A program made the position numbers and the translations under genes. Below, one piece after another: positions 2,322 to 13,712 of a stretch of 20,285 nucleotides of DNA. The stretch is from a virus. Each line of letters starts with the position of its first letter. Within the stretch, counting starts at the first letter, position 1. The stretch is from the IMG/VR virus record IMGVR_UViG_3300049735_000356, positions 1 to 20,285 of that record, one strand, 5' to 3'. The notes beneath the pieces were generated by a model. The model ran no database searches and was not told the DNA's origin. It worked only from the letters and a program-made list of their open reading frames with translations.

Positions 2322-5300
2322 ATGGCAATAATATATAGTTATCCTCTTGGAACTCCAAAGCTGTCAGATTTAGTAATTGGTACTTCTTTAGGTAATGGTA
2401 ACCCTACTAAAAGTTTTACAATACAAAGTATTGCCAATTTAGCCGCGGGCGTAACAAAAATTATACCTGGTACAGATATTTCAATTAGCCCAACTAGCGG
2501 GACTGGCGAGGTAACAATAAATTGTACATTAGATCCAGGCGTTACTTCTATAATAGCAGGGGCTAATATTGCTTTGTCTCCATCTAGCGGTGTAGGGGCT
2601 GTAAACGTAAGTGTTACGGGAGTTGTTTTAGGAGTAACTTCAGGCGATGCTAATACTATTACAATAGGAGGAACATCCACTAACCCCACTGTTGCTGCTA
2701 ATGTTACTTCAACTATAGCGAGCGGAGGAGCAAATCTTGCTACTGCGGGTACAATTTATGATTTTGTAAATACTAACTATATACCGTACGCACAAACCTC
2801 AACTGCTAATATGCAGTTTGTAAATAATAGCACATCACTAGGCAGCTCAGATACCGTAGTGCCTACTCAATTAGCTGTTAAAACATATGTTGATAATGCT
2901 ATTGTGGGCCAGTTGGTTTATCAAGGCGGTTATAATGCATCTACAAACACTCCTGATTTAACAACATCTCCAAATAGTATTTTACGCGGGTGGACTTATA
3001 CAGTAACAACCGGGGGCACATTTTTTACTGAAACAGTAGAGGTTGGGGATTTATTAATTGCAGAATCTGATAATCCGTCTGCTCTTACGGATTGGACAAC
3101 AGTACAGAACAATATTGGAATTGCTACAGCAACTACTCAAGGTATAGCTAATTTTCCTACAGCTGGTGGACTAGTTGTTAATGCAGGTGCAGTATCAATC
3201 GCTAATACAGCTGTTACTCCAGACTCGTATACATTAACTAATTTAACAGTAGATGCGCAGGGGCGTATTACCGCCGCGTCTAATGGAACAGTAGATATTG
3301 GTGTTGCTGATTTTTCTTCTGCTCCTGGAACTTTTATAACAGTTGCAAATTTAACTTCTGCTACTGGATCTGTAGATTTAGGCACAGTAGACTTATCCGC
3401 AACCGGTACCCCAAGCAGTACAACATTTTTACGCGGGGACAATACATGGGCAACGCCGGCAGATATAGATAATTATGTAGATGGAATATCCTTTGATACT
3501 TCTACAGGCGTTTTAACATTAACACGAACAGGAGCATTAGCAGATCTTACGCAAGATTTAGATGGCAGATATGCATTAAGTGCAAATATACCAACTAATA
3601 TAGTAGAAACATTAACAACAACAAATGGTACATATATAAATCTTACTCCTACAGCTTCAACTTCAGGAAATGTAACAGTAACAGCTCAACTTTCGGCTAC
3701 AGGCACGCCTAGTGCATCAAATTTTTTATCCGGGGATAATACATGGAAAACAGCACTTACTAGTGTTGGCTTAACTAGTACCGCAAGTACGATTGGTATA
3801 AGTAGTTCACCTCTTACAGCCAATGGCACAATGAACATAGATTTAAATACATCAGGCGTTACTGCGGGATCTTACACGAATGCGGATATTACTGTTGATC
3901 AATATGGAAGAATAACCGTTGCAGGAGACGGGTCTTCTGGAGGTACAGGCACGGTAACAGGGGTGACATCAACTGATACAAATACAATATCAATAGCTAA
4001 TTCTACCACTACACCGGCTATTACAGCAATTACAGCCGCGGTAGCCTCGGGCTCAGCAGCATTAGTAACAAGCGGCGATGTGTTTACTTATGTAAATGCT
4101 ACAGCACTTACTAGTGTTGGACTTACAAGCACAGCTAGCACTATTGTAATAGGAAGTTCTCCTTTAACGGCTAACGGTACTATGAATGTTGACTTAGCAG
4201 CATCGGGAGTATCGCAAGGGTCTTATACAAATGCAGACATAACCGTTGATCAGTACGGTAGAATAACGGTAGCTGGTAATGGATCAAGTACAGGTGGCAC
4301 TGTAACTAGTGTTACTTCCGCTGACACAAATACAATTACAGTTGCTAATACAACTACAACTCCCGAAATAACTGCTGTAACTGCGGCTGTAGCTTCTGGG
4401 TCAACTGCTTTGGTAACTAGCGGTGATGTATATAGCTATGTTAATACAAATGCGCCTGGGACTGTAACATCTATAGGTTTTGACGTATCTGCTTTTAGTG
4501 CTTTTTCAATTACTCCGAGTACGGCAATATCCACTAATGGAACATTTACACTTGGTATTAGCGGTGGTTCAGCAGGACAATTTTTAGATTATACAGGCAA
4601 CTGGTCTACACCGTCTGGCTCTGTTACAGGGACAGGAACTGTTAATAAATTAGCAAAATGGAGTAGCGGTGGTACTGGTATACAAAATTCTAATATAACG
4701 GATAATGGTAGTCTTATTACGATAGCAAGTGAAACTAACCAAACCGGAAAAGCTGTTTTTAGAAATGGAATGGTTTTAAGCAATAACCCAGGCGGTGTTA
4801 CTGTAGATGACACATCTATGGTTATTGGGGCGGGTAATAATGATATTGTTTCAGGGGCTGATCACGCATTAGCAGTAGGAAACAATAATCAAATATTATC
4901 AAACTCGGACAATTCTATAGCTGTTGGGCAAGGTAATACACTAACAGAAGCAACCGCTTCGGCTGCATTTGGGTTATCTAATACTATAACAGGTGCAGGT
5001 ACAACTGAAAGATCTTTTGTAGCTGGATTTAATAACACTATTACAACCGCAAACAGTAGTGTTGTTATGGGAGGTGGTAATTCTTTAACTAGTAATGCCG
5101 GCTTAGGTATAATACTTGGAAATGCTAATACTGTAACGGGTAATCAATCAAATGACTCGTCTTTTGTTTTAGGAAGTAGTAATACTTTAAGCAATAATAC
5201 AAATCTTCAAAATGTTTTTGCTATAGGCAATAACTTAACTGCGGATACAGGAGAAATGATACTTGGGTATAGAAATCTCACTTCTGGTTATCCCGCTACA

Positions 5301-9071: not shown

Positions 9072-9514
9072 AGCAATTAGAGGCTAGAGACATTAAAGAA
9101 TTGAATCTATTAAAACATTACAGAGTAATCCGCAAATGGGCCGCAAGAAATAATCAATTAACAGATGCTGATTTAGAACTTTTAATATATTTAGATTGTA
9201 TTGATTTATTTACAAAAATAGATTTTAAAATGGGTGCTTATTCTTATAGCTGGGATAATAGAAGATGGAATAAATTATTAAAGCTTAACTGGATTACTGT
9301 TTGGAGAAAAAGAAATCATACAACTCAAAAATATAATTTATATAAAGTTTCTTTTAAAGGCAAACATTTAATTAATAGAATGTATAAAATAATGTTAGGC
9401 GAAGAAGATATTCCGCTTAGCGAAAAAAGAAATAAAATAATGAAAGGAGAAACCTATACTGATAAAGTATTAAAAGTTTCTATAAAAAATATTAATAAAG
9501 ATAAACATAGATAA
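9068..9514 (+). CDS. Winged-helix protein candidate (MarR-like)
   Basis: A 148-aa basic protein that begins in an ATGA overlap with the groES stop. The order of elements fits a winged helix: a helix LLKHYRVIRKWAARN (14-28), LTDADLELLIYLDCI (31-45), a recognition-helix-like RRWNKLLKLNWI (65-76), then a basic hairpin VWRKRNHTTQKYNLYKVS (78-95) and KGKHLI. This recalls MarR-type regulators, where helices are followed by a WI..WRKR wing and an LT.KG-like turn. The C-terminal tail is Lys-rich. If it binds DNA it could control late transcription of the neighbouring morphogenesis genes. The fold is read by eye, and a DNA-packaging or nucleoid role is equally possible. Confidence 0.6.
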   Translation: MKQLEARDIKELNLLKHYRVIRKWAARNNQLTDADLELLIYLDCIDLFTKIDFKMGAYSYSWDNRRWNKLLKLNWITVWRKRNHTTQKYNLYKVSFKGKHLINRMYKIMLGEEDIPLSEKRNKIMKGETYTDKVLKVSIKNINKDKHR

Positions 9515-9516
9515 TT

Positions 9517-9720
9517 ATGGACAAAAGCAAAGCAATTATTTCAAACCCACAACTTCGAGGGCAAGTAGGGGAATCTCATGTATGGGACGGCCCTTTAGAT
9601 ACTGATGGATTTCCTATGGGCTCAGGCTCAAGTTCTGGAATTACAGGTATGCAATTAAAAAAATATCCCACGCCGTATATGGCAGGGCCTATTACTCAAA
9701 TAGCCAAAGGAAATAAATAA
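9517..9720 (+). CDS. Small hypothetical protein, 67 aa
   Basis: This encodes MDKSKAIISNPQLRGQVG, then ESHVWDGPLDTDGFPMG and a Gly/Ser-rich linker, ending YMAGPITQIAKGNK. It has no TM segment, no catalytic motif and low predicted order. The gene sits two bases after the winged-helix gene and abuts the small membrane-protein gene at 9721, so it clearly belongs to the same transcription unit. I do not recognise a function. A virion-associated peptide is possible, since several neighbours have similar short, Gly/Pro-rich N-terminal motifs. Confidence 0.6.
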   Translation: MDKSKAIISNPQLRGQVGESHVWDGPLDTDGFPMGSGSSSGITGMQLKKYPTPYMAGPITQIAKGNK

Positions 9721-9873
9721 ATGGCTTTTTCTGATTTGAAACTATACGCAATAAATTCTTTAGCTTTAGGAGTTACTATGATGGACATCGAGTGGTGGTT
9801 AAAAATTATTTTGTTAGTGGTTACTATAGGGTATACAATTACTAAATGGTGGAAAATAAAAAAAAATAAATAA
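9721..9873 (+). CDS. 50-aa single-TM protein, holin-like candidate
   Basis: The ATG directly follows the previous TAA. The frame encodes MAFSDLKLYAINSLALGVTM, then MDIEWWLKIILLVVTIGYTI and TKWWKIKKNK, stopping at 9871-9873. An amphipathic N-terminal helix is followed by one hydrophobic helix (about residues 25-40) flanked by Trp pairs, and a Lys-rich tail that predicts a cytoplasmic C-terminus. Short proteins of this shape are common as class III-like holins or holin regulators in phages. It overlaps the next start by one base (TAATG), which supports it as a translated gene even though it is very short. It is one of three membrane-protein genes in the window. Confidence 0.7.
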   Translation: MAFSDLKLYAINSLALGVTMMDIEWWLKIILLVVTIGYTITKWWKIKKNK

Positions 9874-10187
9874 TGGCATATTCACAAAGCTCTTCTCCTT
9901 TTTTAAAAAGAGGTGATGCTCCTTCACGCAAAAAATCTTTAGGTTATTATAATAAGGCTAAAGATAGCGGAACAGGTGCTGCAGCCGGCGGTGGTATGTC
10001 AGAAAAAGGCGTAAAAAAATATAGAAAAGATAATCCTGGTAGTAAGCTTAAAACGGCGGTAACTACTGATCCTAAAAAACTTAAAAGGGGAAGCAAAGCT
10101 TGGAAAAGAAGAAAATCTTTTTGCGCAAGATCAAAAAATTGGAAATCAAAAAGAGGTAAAGCTGCACGACGCAGATGGAACTGCTAA
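9873..10187 (+). CDS. Very basic small phage protein (DUF6321-like)
   Basis: A 104-aa protein extremely rich in Lys and Arg. It has a Gly-rich turn (GAAAGGGMSEKGVKKYRKDN, 35-54), PGSKLKTAV (56-63), a KPGSK-like stretch KRGSKAWKRRKSFCARS (71-87), and the terminal GKAARRRWNC. The pattern GGGM..KGVKKYR..NPGSKLKTAV...RRKSFCAR..W.....KAARRRWNC is one I recall from many marine phage genomes; I believe Pfam calls it DUF6321, but I could not check. The two cysteines (C84 and terminal C104) and the basic character suggest nucleic-acid contact or a virion role. It starts in a TAATG overlap with the preceding membrane-protein gene. Confidence 0.75.
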   Translation: MAYSQSSSPFLKRGDAPSRKKSLGYYNKAKDSGTGAAAGGGMSEKGVKKYRKDNPGSKLKTAVTTDPKKLKRGSKAWKRRKSFCARSKNWKSKRGKAARRRWNC

Positions 10188-10208
10188 ATTAATATTAAAC
10201 ACTACAAA

Positions 10209-10460
10209 ATGGAAAAAGGACATTACGGTGAATACACCGGCAACGCAAGACATTCACGCACGCCTGTAAACAAATACGATTACAGATCTTCTGAAAGAGA
10301 TGATGCGGCACATATATCTTATTTAAAAAGAGATATATTAGACGATCAAAAGCATGGAGGTAAATATAAAGATATTGATCAAACTGCAGATGAAAAACAT
10401 ATTTCTAAATTAGCAGGAGATATGAAATATGATAAAAAACACGATAAATATAAAGCTTAA
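10209..10460 (+). CDS. Small hydrophilic protein with YTGN..P[IV]N motif
   Basis: An 83-aa, highly charged, His/Lys/Asp-rich protein. The N-terminal GEYTGNARHSRTPVN (7-21) has the same length and key positions as a segment in the next protein (GTYTGNHPRFTAPIN). The rest is helix-forming with acidic and basic blocks (YLKRDILDDQKHGGKYKDID, then KHISKLAGDMKYDKKHDKY). There are no TM segments and no catalytic residues. Four bases separate it from the next start. The shared motif suggests that both proteins bind a common partner, for example a head component. The function is unknown. Confidence 0.65.
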   Translation: MEKGHYGEYTGNARHSRTPVNKYDYRSSERDDAAHISYLKRDILDDQKHGGKYKDIDQTADEKHISKLAGDMKYDKKHDKYKA

Positions 10461-10464
10461 AACG

Positions 10465-11094
10465 ATGGGTCAAAAAATAAATACAAAAAGCCGGGCTGGT
10501 GGATCTGGTACTTATACCGGCAACCACCCCAGGTTTACTGCACCTATTAATATGATGGGACAAGTTACAGGTCAGATGCCTACACAAATGGGAGCTATGC
10601 CCCAGCAAAATATTATAGACCCTACTCAACAAAATATTATAAACCCTATGACTGCTAGTGCACAGCCGGCTTATTCCGCGCAAGAGCAAATAGGCATGGC
10701 TAATCAACCACCTTTAACAACAGCTGGTCTAGCCTCACCTGCATTTGTTGATGCAGATTATAGTGTAGGTCAAGGAATTAAAAAAGTTGCTGATAAAGTT
10801 GCCGGTGTTGACACTACAATTAAAGGCGGACTAACTGGTAGAGCCGCTAAAACTAAGGATAAAGCTGATGCTGCAAAAATTGCCGCTGAAAAAGAAACGC
10901 CAGAAGAAGCTATGGCTAAAACTTTAAATAATCAAGAAACTGCAGCAGAAAGAGCGGTGAGATTAGAAAAAAGAGGTAAGCGTCAAGCGGGAAGAGCTGA
11001 AAGAAAAGCTATTAGAAAACAATATAAAGGCTCAAAAAACAGGGGTGATAGGCGTAAAGCAATAATAGAAAGCCGTCAAAAACAAAGAAAATAA
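10465..11094 (+). CDS. Low-complexity Gln/Ala/Lys-rich protein, putative virion protein
   Basis: A 209-aa protein. I choose ATG 10465 rather than the in-frame ATG 10429, because the earlier one would overlap the upstream gene by 32 bases and adds a composition typical of a shadow frame. The N-terminus has GGSGTYTGNHPRFTAPINMM, then a Met/Gln/Pro-rich stretch with a tandem QQNIIDPT/QQNIINPM unit. The middle segment VGQGIKKVADKVAGVDTTIK may be an amphipathic helix. The C-terminal third is a strongly basic, Ala/Lys/Arg/Glu-rich helix (EKRGKRQAGRAERKAIRKQY to the end). This resembles internal or ejected virion proteins in composition, but no family is recognised. Confidence 0.7.
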   Translation: MGQKINTKSRAGGSGTYTGNHPRFTAPINMMGQVTGQMPTQMGAMPQQNIIDPTQQNIINPMTASAQPAYSAQEQIGMANQPPLTTAGLASPAFVDADYSVGQGIKKVADKVAGVDTTIKGGLTGRAAKTKDKADAAKIAAEKETPEEAMAKTLNNQETAAERAVRLEKRGKRQAGRAERKAIRKQYKGSKNRGDRRKAIIESRQKQRK

Positions 11095-11095
11095 T

Positions 11096-11251
11096 ATGAA
11101 ATCAAAAGGTTTTGGCGACGACGTAGAAAAATTTACTAAGGCTACAGGAATTAAAACTATTGTAGATAAAGTTTCTGAAGGTTTAAATATACCTTGCGGT
11201 TGCGGTGCTAGAAAAAATAAATTAAACGAAATGTTTCCTTATAATAAATAA
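11096..11251 (+). CDS. 51-aa CGC-motif phage protein
   Basis: This very short gene lies between the stop at 11094 and the next ATG, which it overlaps by one base (TAATG at 11249-11253). It encodes MKSKGFGDDVEKFTKATGIK, then TIVDKVSEGLNIPCGCGARK and NKLNEMFPYNK. The sequence has an amphipathic helix, a CGC motif (C34, G35, C36) and a terminal LNEMFPYNK. I recall this GfGD.v.k.tkatGIk...CGC..Rk..LN..fPy pattern in other phage genomes as a conserved hypothetical protein. Adjacent cysteines could bind metal with a partner or act in thiol exchange; this is inference. The tight packing between two real genes supports translation. Confidence 0.75.
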   Translation: MKSKGFGDDVEKFTKATGIKTIVDKVSEGLNIPCGCGARKNKLNEMFPYNK

Positions 11252-11553
11252 TGGCTTTTAAAATTAACCCTCCTTATACAATAGATAATACACCGGTTTA
11301 TACGGTAGATTTAGAAAATAATGTATTAGGTAAAGCTAATAATAACGGAACTATTATAATAAATAAAAATTTACATCCATCTAATATAAAAAAAGTAGTA
11401 GATCATGAAATGGTCCATGTTGATCAATTTAAACGGGGCGATTTAGATTATGACGATCAAAATGTATATTGGAAAGGCAAAGTATATCCTCGATCTAAAA
11501 TGAGAGAGGGATCACCCACTTTAGCTTGGGAAAAAGAAGCTTATAACAAATAA
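11251..11553 (+). CDS. Mini metallopeptidase-like protein with HExxH
   Basis: A 100-aa protein with a zincin motif, DHEMVHVDQ (H52, E53, H56), preceded by the strand NNGTIIINKNLHP and a helix SNIKKVVDHE. The C-terminal LAWEKEAYN (E94 or E96) is a plausible third zinc ligand, as in gluzincin-type families where a downstream Glu completes the site. At 100 residues it would be a minimal catalytic core. Possible roles are prohead or fibre maturation, or cell-wall degradation during entry or lysis; nothing in the sequence decides between these. It starts in a TAATG overlap with the CGC gene. Confidence 0.65.
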   Translation: MAFKINPPYTIDNTPVYTVDLENNVLGKANNNGTIIINKNLHPSNIKKVVDHEMVHVDQFKRGDLDYDDQNVYWKGKVYPRSKMREGSPTLAWEKEAYNK

Positions 11554-11563
11554 ATAAACAAAA

Positions 11564-12223
11564 ATGGAAAGTGCAAAACAAGAAAGAAAAAACTTAATGA
11601 ATGACATGCCTATTGTCAATCGCGCAAGCGGAAGCTGGATGTCTAAACATTCCCGTGCCGCGGTAAGTCCAGTTGAAATGGGAGGTTCAGGTAAAATGAA
11701 TCCTATTGAAATGGGGCATAAAGAAAGCCCAATGGCTATTGATACAGATCCTAAATCTGGTAGAGATAAAAGATTCGGATATAGTGATAGCGGAGAGTTA
11801 GTAGGCATAAAAGAAAGAGGAGGAAATATTGGTGGACAATATATGCCTAATCAAAAAACAATTGATCAAGCTAATACCAACACAGGAATATTTGATCCAA
11901 AATCTACTTCAGCAGGTAAATTTAAAGGTGGTTTAAGATCAAGCGCTGGAGGTATAATGACGGAAAAACAATTTAGAGATCCTTCAAATAAAAATATGGC
12001 TATGGGGGTTGTTGATCATCAAGGAAAATATACTAAATTTTCTTCTCCAAAAAGTAATACAAATAACAGCTTAAGTAAGAGCCAAGTTTTTAAAGAGTAC
12101 GCTAATACAAGAGATGAATATAATCAAAGGCGTCAAAACCTGTTGAACATGCAAAAAAATGTTCAAGATTATGCTAAAGCTGGTGGAAGAATTAAAAAAA
12201 GCGATCCTAAATCTGGTCGTTAA
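11564..12223 (+). CDS. Hypothetical low-complexity protein with PxEMG and DPKS repeats
   Basis: A 219-aa hydrophilic protein, Gly/Ser/Lys/Asn-rich and probably disordered. It has two copies of [SN]P[VI]EMG (35-40 and 46-51), followed by KESPM, and three DPKS motifs (62-65, 111-114, 214-217); the first and last are DPKSGR and share the same 15-base DNA string (gatcctaaatctggt). A helical stretch occupies about 172-205 (VFKEYANTRDEYNQRRQNLL). The N-terminal KHSRAAVSPVEM loosely resembles ARHSRTPVN in the protein at 10209. SP[IVL]EM-type repeats recur in small Bacteroidetes-phage proteins as I remember them; their role is unknown to me. It follows the mini-peptidase gene by 10 bases and precedes the holin. 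Confidence 0.6.
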   Translation: MESAKQERKNLMNDMPIVNRASGSWMSKHSRAAVSPVEMGGSGKMNPIEMGHKESPMAIDTDPKSGRDKRFGYSDSGELVGIKERGGNIGGQYMPNQKTIDQANTNTGIFDPKSTSAGKFKGGLRSSAGGIMTEKQFRDPSNKNMAMGVVDHQGKYTKFSSPKSNTNNSLSKSQVFKEYANTRDEYNQRRQNLLNMQKNVQDYAKAGGRIKKSDPKSGR

Positions 12224-12229
12224 AATAAA

Positions 12230-12610
12230 ATGTGGAAATTATTACTTGGGTTTTTAAAAGGCGGCGACGGTAGAAAATCTGTAGCTGGCAATTTAGCCTG
12301 GGAAATACGCGAAGCAATTAAAGGAAAAGAATTAGATCCTAACGAACTAATATCTATTCAAACTAAAATTAATGAAATAGAAGCAGGCCATAGAACAGTA
12401 TTTGTTGCCGGATGGAGACCCTTTATAGGCTGGGTTTGTGGTGTTGCTTTAGCATATAATTTTGTAATAAGAGATTTATTTATTTGGGCTTTAGACCCGC
12501 AGGAAGTTCCGCCTGCATTACAAATGGAACATTTAATGACCGTCTTACTCGGAATGCTTGGGCTGGGCGGTTTAAGAACATATGAAAAAGTAAAAGACAA
12601 AGTAAAATAA
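12230..12610 (+). CDS. Holin of 3TM superfamily (GTA_holin_3TM type)
   Basis: A 126-aa membrane protein. The diagnostic segment IEAGHRTVFVAGWRPFIGW (50-68) runs into a TM helix (about 65-80). A second hydrophobic span (100-116, LMTVLLGMLGLGGL) ends in the signature GLGGLRTYEK (111-120). This is the pattern of the 3TM phage holin family (Pfam GTA_holin_3TM, PF11351), which permeabilises the inner membrane at the end of infection so that lysins reach the wall. The N-terminal part is amphipathic and helical. No recognisable endolysin gene lies beside it in this window. It sits in the small-gene block, six bases after the preceding gene. I am confident in the family; timing and partner are unknown. 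Confidence 0.88.
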   Translation: MWKLLLGFLKGGDGRKSVAGNLAWEIREAIKGKELDPNELISIQTKINEIEAGHRTVFVAGWRPFIGWVCGVALAYNFVIRDLFIWALDPQEVPPALQMEHLMTVLLGMLGLGGLRTYEKVKDKVK

Positions 12611-12883: not shown

Positions 12884-13114
12884 ATGTCTACTATTATAAG
12901 AAAAATCAGTATTGGGTCTGATTATAAAAATGATGCTATGCATTACTCGATAGGACAAGAAGTCTACGGAGGACATAAAATAGCTTATATCATATTTGAT
13001 GATGCTGATGGTTCTTATAATATTCATATTAAAAAAGACAACGAAGTAGTGCCATGGAAAAAGTTTAATTCTAATATGGCTATTTCAGTTGAGTACGACT
13101 TAAAATATGAATAG
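12884..13114 (+). CDS. Small beta-rich phage protein, 76 aa
   Basis: This encodes MSTIIRKISIGSDYKNDAMH, then YSIGQEVYGGHKIAYIIFDD and further strands to WKKFNSNMAISVEYDLKYE. The alternating hydrophobic pattern predicts a small beta barrel. The motif IRKISIG.DYKN.AMHY..GQ..YGG is one I recall from other phage genomes beside terminase genes. There is no enzyme motif. It overlaps the next start by eight bases (13107-13114), so the two are probably translationally coupled. The co-translated partner is the GroES-like tandem protein. Confidence 0.7.
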   Translation: MSTIIRKISIGSDYKNDAMHYSIGQEVYGGHKIAYIIFDDADGSYNIHIKKDNEVVPWKKFNSNMAISVEYDLKYE

Positions 13115-13712
13115 TATATATGATTTTATTGTAGAGCCTGTTGGCGAAAGATACAATAACTCTATTAAAGTTAATGACACTAATTTAATTCTTAATTCAA
13201 AAATAGAATCTTTTAAGTTTATTAATAAAATTGCAAAAGTAATAAGCGTACCTTTAGCGTATAAAACGTCTATAAAATCTAATGATGAAATTATAATTCA
13301 TCATAATGTATTTAGAAGATATTACGATATTAGAGGTAAAGAAAAAAACAGTAGCAAATATTTTAAAGACAACTTATATTTTTGTCAGCCGGATCAAATT
13401 TATCTTGTTAAAAAAAATAATAAATGGGTTGCATTTAATGATCGTTGTTTTGTTAAGCCTATTGTAAATAAAAGCGATTTAAAGCCAGGAAAAACCTCAG
13501 CCCTTATTGGAATACTTAAATATGGTAATGATTCTTTAAAAGCACTTGAAATTAGCCCAGGTGATGTAGTAGGCTTCACGCCTAACAGCGAGTGGGAGTT
13601 TATAATAGAAAATGAACTTCTATATTGCATGAAATCTAATGATATTGTTATTAAATATGGAAGTAAAGAAAACAAAAGAGAATATAATCCAAGCTGGGCA
13701 AAAAGCAGTTGA
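13107..13712 (+). CDS. Tandem GroES-like (Cpn10-fold) protein, putative second co-chaperonin
   Basis: A 201-aa protein that I read as two fused GroES-like barrels. Half 1: FIVEPVGERYNN (7-18), a loop with NLIL (26-29) like the GroES mobile-loop IVL, INKIAKVISVP (39-49), SNDEIIIHHNVFR (58-70, equivalent to VGDIVIFND) and DNLYFCQPDQIYLV (88-101, equivalent to EEVLIMSESDILAIV). Half 2: NDRCFVKPIV (111-120), ALIGILKYGN (132-141), SPGDVVGFTPN (150-160) and NELLYCMKSNDIVIKYG (169-185). The parallel LYFCQ..QI and LYCMK..DI strands show the internal repeat. Chloroplast Cpn20 is a known tandem Cpn10. Half 2 has only a short, non-hydrophobic loop. It lies directly before the small terminase, whose start overlaps it by 56 bases. 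The co-chaperonin role is inference; a head-associated beta-barrel is the main alternative. Confidence 0.65.
   Translation: MNSIYDFIVEPVGERYNNSIKVNDTNLILNSKIESFKFINKIAKVISVPLAYKTSIKSNDEIIIHHNVFRRYYDIRGKEKNSSKYFKDNLYFCQPDQIYLVKKNNKWVAFNDRCFVKPIVNKSDLKPGKTSALIGILKYGNDSLKALEISPGDVVGFTPNSEWEFIIENELLYCMKSNDIVIKYGSKENKREYNPSWAKSS

Follow-up and report, generated by a model that had tools for sequence, protein, structure and literature searches.

A YTGN-core peptide on two adjacent small late proteins of an uncultured phage, a possible docking tag passed between carriers

In phage T4, the leader of the internal proteins is removed by the prohead protease. This leader, the capsid targeting sequence (CTS), is a described precedent for a shared leader (PMC3012670). 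The peptide analyzed here resembles the CTS by description: in both, small proteins of a tailed phage that are otherwise dissimilar begin with a brief conserved stretch. It differs in that the T4 signal occurs on several proteins per virion (PMC3012670), whereas here there is one carrier per genome, and two in the virus from which our sequence comes. That sequence (the window, the whole 20,285-base stretch of DNA that was analyzed) encodes GroEL (7274), GroES (8811), and fibre-like proteins, then a row of small proteins, together with a 3-TM holin (12230), the large terminase (13923), and the portal (16147).

The window terminase is 60.6% identical to that of the uncultured podovirus record MW202828 and 32-44% identical to those of phages of Flavobacterium, Cellulophaga, Maribacter, and Tenacibaculum, so that the host is probably a flavobacterium. 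Among described relatives, Elemovirus, Pachyviridae (phi13:2), Pervagoviridae (phi38:1), Maribacter phage Panino, and MW202828 have terminases 37-61% identical to that of the window. In their late regions, as in the window, a portal or structural protein adjoins the terminase, and chaperonin genes are found in several; in contrast, the small protein P83 described below is not detectable in any of those five whole records. Searches for relatives of the tagged carriers in cultured phages found none, the one match touching the C-terminal tail alone. Two genes ahead of the terminase, the product of 13107-13712 gives a weak Cpn10 match (E = 0.058), and genes placed like it in phi13:2, elemo, and Panino are annotated as cpn10 or GroES. 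A putative metallopeptidase with an HExxH motif (HEMVH; 11251-11553) is kept near the tagged gene in nearly all relatives, being matched in 80 of 82 loci; its Pfam matches (DUF6782, M91) fall below the cut-off.

The original prediction pointed to a 13-residue string, starting YTGN and ending P[VI]N, in two adjacent and otherwise unrelated proteins, here called P83 and P209 (Table 1). The strings are exactly where claimed, YTGNARHSRTPVN at residues 9-21 of P83 and YTGNHPRFTAPIN at residues 17-29 of P209, numbered from the ATG at 10465 (another in-frame ATG lies upstream, at 10429), and the remainder of the two proteins is indeed unrelated. Judged within the window only, the match does not exceed what chance could give: the best ungapped alignment (GGSGTYTGNHPRFTAPIN / GHYGEYTGNARHSRTPVN) has a score of 40 and an E value of 0.007, is equalled by 28 of 2000 shuffles, and ranks 3rd among the 171 pairs of window proteins shorter than 450 aa. 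A repeat search of 9500-12250 found none spanning both tags, and hence no recent duplication inside the genome was seen. The 1388-aa fibre at 4590 contains another YTGN, the third in the window; neither this nor the YTGNG strings of other fibres follow the tag pattern, and both were treated as chance.

Table 1. Tagged proteins, their tags, and neighbouring chimeric or modular proteins in the window
Feature	Coordinates	Strand	Basis or remark
P83, 83-aa small protein: N-terminal tag, then two charged helices	10209..10460	+	ORF, relatives, AlphaFold2
Tag in P83, GHYGEYTGNARHS, ARHS type	10218..10256	+	Invariant G4, G7, Y9, G11, N12 in 54 sequences
P209, 209-aa chimeric protein: tag, Q/P-rich linker, basic C-terminal tail	10465..11094	+	Frame may start at 10429
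Tag in P209, GGSGTYTGNHPRF, HPR type	10498..10536	+	Motif models; GTYTGNHPRF (ten residues) identical in L238
C-terminal part of P209, residues 126-208	10840..11088	+	Matches untagged cassette protein of L033/L031; blastp E 1.4e-11, 49% over 86 aa
P219, chimera without YTGN tag	11564..12223	+	Residues 1-49 and 49-215 have different relatives
Neighbour in same cassette, SSPF leader + DUF6321 tail	9873..10187	+	PF19846, 39.1 bits vs cut-off of 28.5 (Pfam gathering score reached)

Relatives of P83 were confirmed in 220 cases in viral contigs, and 80 were kept. Copies of the window itself (L001-L003) were dropped from all analyses; a further locus, L004, comes from the same virus as the window (99.96% over 7,435 bases). 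P83 is 54-78% identical to 53 aligned relatives, which is ordinary for a clade whose nearest terminases are ~77% identical. Across the 54 aligned sequences, five tag residues are unchanged while their codons differ synonymously (four codons at G7, three at G11, two each at Y9 and N12), and the tag consensus is His-rich. Close relatives of P209 come from its own virus alone. A 20-column model of the HPR type was built from 27 unique segments from other viruses, with the window virus left out, and run against the 43 window ORFs and their 43 reversed counterparts. It returned P209 at an E value of 1.1e-9 and P83 at 6.2e-4, the next being 0.86. A model from other viruses thus picks these two proteins and nothing else in the window, which shows that the homology of the YTGN core is real. 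A model of ARHS and other types (42 segments) found P83 and missed P209 (E = 2.6). Against a carrier of the L088 type, P209 matched over 29 residues with an E value of 8.6e-10.

The motif proper can be written approximately as GHxGxY[TS]GN, after which comes either ARHS or HPR[FYW]. The core of the predicted motif stands on the models from relatives; its 13-residue length and P[VI]N end are coincidence. Residues 11-13 of 58 unique P83 modules read PVT in 35, PIT in 8, PVN in 2, and otherwise in 13, and the HPR-type relatives of P209 have SPA, SKG, or HKQ thereabouts instead. The looser match proposed in the protein at 11564 does not hold up either: it has an E value of 2.8 with one motif model and is unlisted by the other, and its KHS belongs to another conserved string, GS[WF]MSKH.

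Absence of the motif from homologues of either protein had been named beforehand as the finding that would speak against the prediction. When homologues were chosen by the C-terminal helix alone, Y[TS]GN was found in 65 of 68 unique P83-type stretches, and the tag was likewise found in 31 of 35 unique HPR-type stretches chosen by helix, so the core survives this check. Seven helix-picked stretches are without the tag. Four truly lack it, with the P83 helix in L091, L099, and L126 and the HYLEN helix in L110; L209 and L210 start at a contig end, and L208 is broken. In L208 (7976-8139), the tagged gene is interrupted by stops directly behind the tag, either through a sequencing error or because the gene is dying. 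L085 lies outside the 266-locus gene set and was read separately, being counted among the helix-chosen stretches; its 9992-10183 encodes a 63-aa version of P83 with one of the two helical repeats.

The tag is carried by other proteins as well. In 80 loci fetched by terminase, the equivalent cassette position is occupied by other small proteins that bear Y[TS]GN, and further scans used two such proteins (18 and 32 loci) and the L088 type (50 loci). Unique N-termini with Y[TS]GN in the 266 loci comprised 61 of P83 type, 28 of DAKEAYN type, 11 of RELIYDA type, and 30 others, several of which are unrelated fibre strings. Hybrids tie the carrier types together: L113 and L114 join a P83-type lead (GHYGEYSGNARHSR or GYYGEYTGNARHSR) to the RELIYDA helix, and L205 and L216 join a P83-type lead plus HPR (GHYGQYSGNHPRF) to the DAK-type helix. 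The tag lies ahead of a charged helix or, in the L088 type, behind it, and a conserved short leader sits on several kinds of otherwise dissimilar small proteins. The tails of P83 differ from one another; among the 37 that are at least 8 aa long, 34 begin with SP.

To count carriers per genome we used 55 complete, non-identical cassettes (L084, L086, L087, and L168-L170 were left out). According to the gene caller, 46 of them have a single tagged gene, the window has two, and 8 have none. Three of these 8 (L005, L028, L030) do have P83, dropped by the gene caller, and one is the broken L208; the cassettes showing no tagged gene are L110, L137, L139, and L145. The corrected tally is one tagged gene in 49, two in 1 (the window), and none intact in 5. 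Besides the window, the P83 helix and an HPR tag occur in one locus only in L004.

P209 is, by its sequence relationships, a chimera whose tag end and basic tail have different relatives: residues 6-38 resemble sister-clade tagged proteins (~50-65%; best E, 1e-7), and the match of residues 126-208 is to a cassette protein that has no tag (Table 1). P219 is built in a similar way, with residues 1-49 matching one leader set (MESIKQERxxLMNDMPVDxRASGGSxMSKH) and residues 49-215 matching L030 6166, a protein without that leader. DUF6321 (PF19846) is found in the window on the neighbour at 9873 and not on the tagged proteins; several PHROG matches put this tail at the C terminus of far larger phage proteins. 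On a FastTree tree of 98 terminases (TerL), in which L004 represents the window virus, the sister group of the latter, at the maximum local support (100), consists of 21 viruses whose tagged protein is an internal HPR type or NM variant. The P83 helix is found in 0 of these 21 sister loci, many of whose contigs are partial. ARHS-type viruses fall outside the window virus and its sister clade, and the tree requires 5 changes for ARHS versus the rest and 8-9 for all types, far below shuffled labels. The simplest story would be that P209 gained the tag while P83 was present and that P83 was later lost in the sister line; the opposite order may also have held.

AlphaFold2 gave P83 helices at residues 25-48 and 56-77, with residues 1-24 without structure, in a weak model (mean pLDDT, 64); the two helices resemble an internal repeat (DDAAHISYLKRDILDDQKHG / ADEKHISKLAGDMKYDKKH), as judged by eye from the alignment. 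In the L147 model (mean pLDDT, 59), values under 50 cover the tag and most of the helix region next to it. A Foldseek search of the P83 model against the PDB gave nothing useful (best E, 1.9), and Pfam, PHROGs, and PADLOC assigned no function to P83, P209, P219, or the tails tested; the best tail match among the databases was that of phrog_24078, of unknown function, to L063 (3.4e-4). A literature search on the motif letters and DUF6321 found nothing. L147 4245-4781 and its relatives share a C-terminal tail, GCIKQMGGAWRVISNKT...KAEAALRGYHAG, predicted to form three strands and a helix, a piece of which resembles human faecal phage record MT837925 (E = 1e-3). L202 2576 has a tandem duplication within the helix, SARLHYLENSARLHYLEN.

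We favor, tentatively and at a little under an even chance, the reading that the YTGN peptide is a docking tag passed between carriers. The peptide is a conserved module that lies in a predicted unstructured N terminus or, where it follows a charged helix, in a linker, and its carrier is one small late protein encoded between the chaperonin and terminase genes in nearly every virus of the clade. As a docking tag it would be a short linear motif read by one conserved late-programme partner, most likely one that belongs to the virion or takes part in assembly; the helix behind the tag would space or multimerise the carrier, and the C-terminal tail varies. Recombination would have put an HPR-type tag on the neighbouring P209, whose tail matches another cassette protein; the ARHS-type carrier P83 is still present in the window virus, and the sister clade has the HPR-type carrier only. 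Conservation of a peptide through changes of carrier, of position within the protein, and of the tail behind it is what is expected of a docking motif. Several results count against this reading: the four stretches with the helix and no tag, the five of 55 cassettes without an intact tagged gene, the failure of the ARHS model to find P209, the weak P83 model, and a tree made with FastTree only. One carrier per genome counts against it too, because it fits an ordinary conserved domain equally well, and such a domain explains much of the same evidence. In that case the tag would be part of a small His- and charge-rich functional domain (for metal, DNA, or capsid charge) of an ordinary late protein, and the P209 copy a by-product of recombination, with no docking. 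The single copy per genome, the His-rich consensus, the occurrence of tag and helix mostly together (65/68 and 31/35), and the presence of two tagged genes in one virus only all agree with this; however, the tag also occurs behind the helix in the L088 type, is predicted to be unstructured, and in P209 lacks that helix yet stays conserved with respect to the sister clade. We regard the domain reading as somewhat unlikely, if a serious contender.

The original prediction had suggested loading into the prohead. If both P83 and P209 were loaded by the tag, as T4 proteins are by the CTS, the conserved leader, diverse tails, and late position would be accounted for; yet the T4 signal is on several proteins at once, and a single carrier in 49 of 55 cassettes argues against a general prohead-loading or cargo address. 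By this analogy, prohead loading appears unlikely; it is a special case within the docking-tag reading and not additional to it. Alternatively, the motif, or the SP joint behind it, could be a processing site at which the HExxH protein cuts tags from tails. That protein is in the same cassette, and SP stands at the joint between module and tail in 34 of 37 cases, but the Pfam matches of the HExxH protein are below the cut-off and SP also occurs at protein starts with no module ahead; this explanation is very improbable. That two unrelated proteins have YTGN in common by chance composition would suit the modest E value and rank of the pair within the window, but the independent motif model and the 29-residue match to the L088 type leave it the slimmest of prospects; chance is rejected for the YTGN core by the motif models but stands as the explanation of the 11564 match and the P[VI]N ending.

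A second motif is shared within the cassettes. In a tripeptide count over 78 protein families, SPF, SPL, NSP, and PLN came top. SP[FLAM][KNHQ] was found in 15.0 of 92 cassette clusters versus 1.6 expected (reversed motif, 0.1) and, outside the cassette, in 4.4 of 78 clusters versus 1.2 expected, counts that are coarse because single-linkage clustering merges 916 cassette proteins, which share modules, into one cluster. With the same clustering, Y[TS]GN gave 0.1 observed versus 0.4 expected, and this one cluster prevents a fair test. The motif is present in 247 of 1756 unique cassette proteins, first occurring within the 10 N-terminal residues in 48 of the 247 (~16 expected if evenly spread), and its carriers number 1.49 per cassette, versus 0.20 for the reversed motif. 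The strict form is absent from the window, which has looser forms only, e.g., SSPFLK at 9873 (9873-9905). Carriers include L072 3921-5036, L113 330-617, and L147 3592-4242; the motif is often near the N terminus, is sometimes repeated up to six times, and is common to otherwise unrelated small proteins far beyond chance. As a candidate packaging signal on several proteins per genome, SP[FLAM][KNHQ] is better than the YTGN tag. A broader scheme, which we consider rather doubtful, is a mix-and-match address system in which short leaders (the YTGN tag, the SP[FLAM] motif, and the GS[WF]MSKH string) would be exchanged among variable tails in one late cassette, like T4 but with several addresses; the window would then capture the handover from P83 to the chimeric P209 before P83 is lost.

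Whether or not the tag is an address, the window virus and its sister clade show a conserved motif moving between genes, something rarely caught halfway. If it is one, many uncharacterized small late proteins could be searched for by means of it in an uncultured and seemingly common group of phages, and laboratory work would have a peptide at hand with which to load test proteins.
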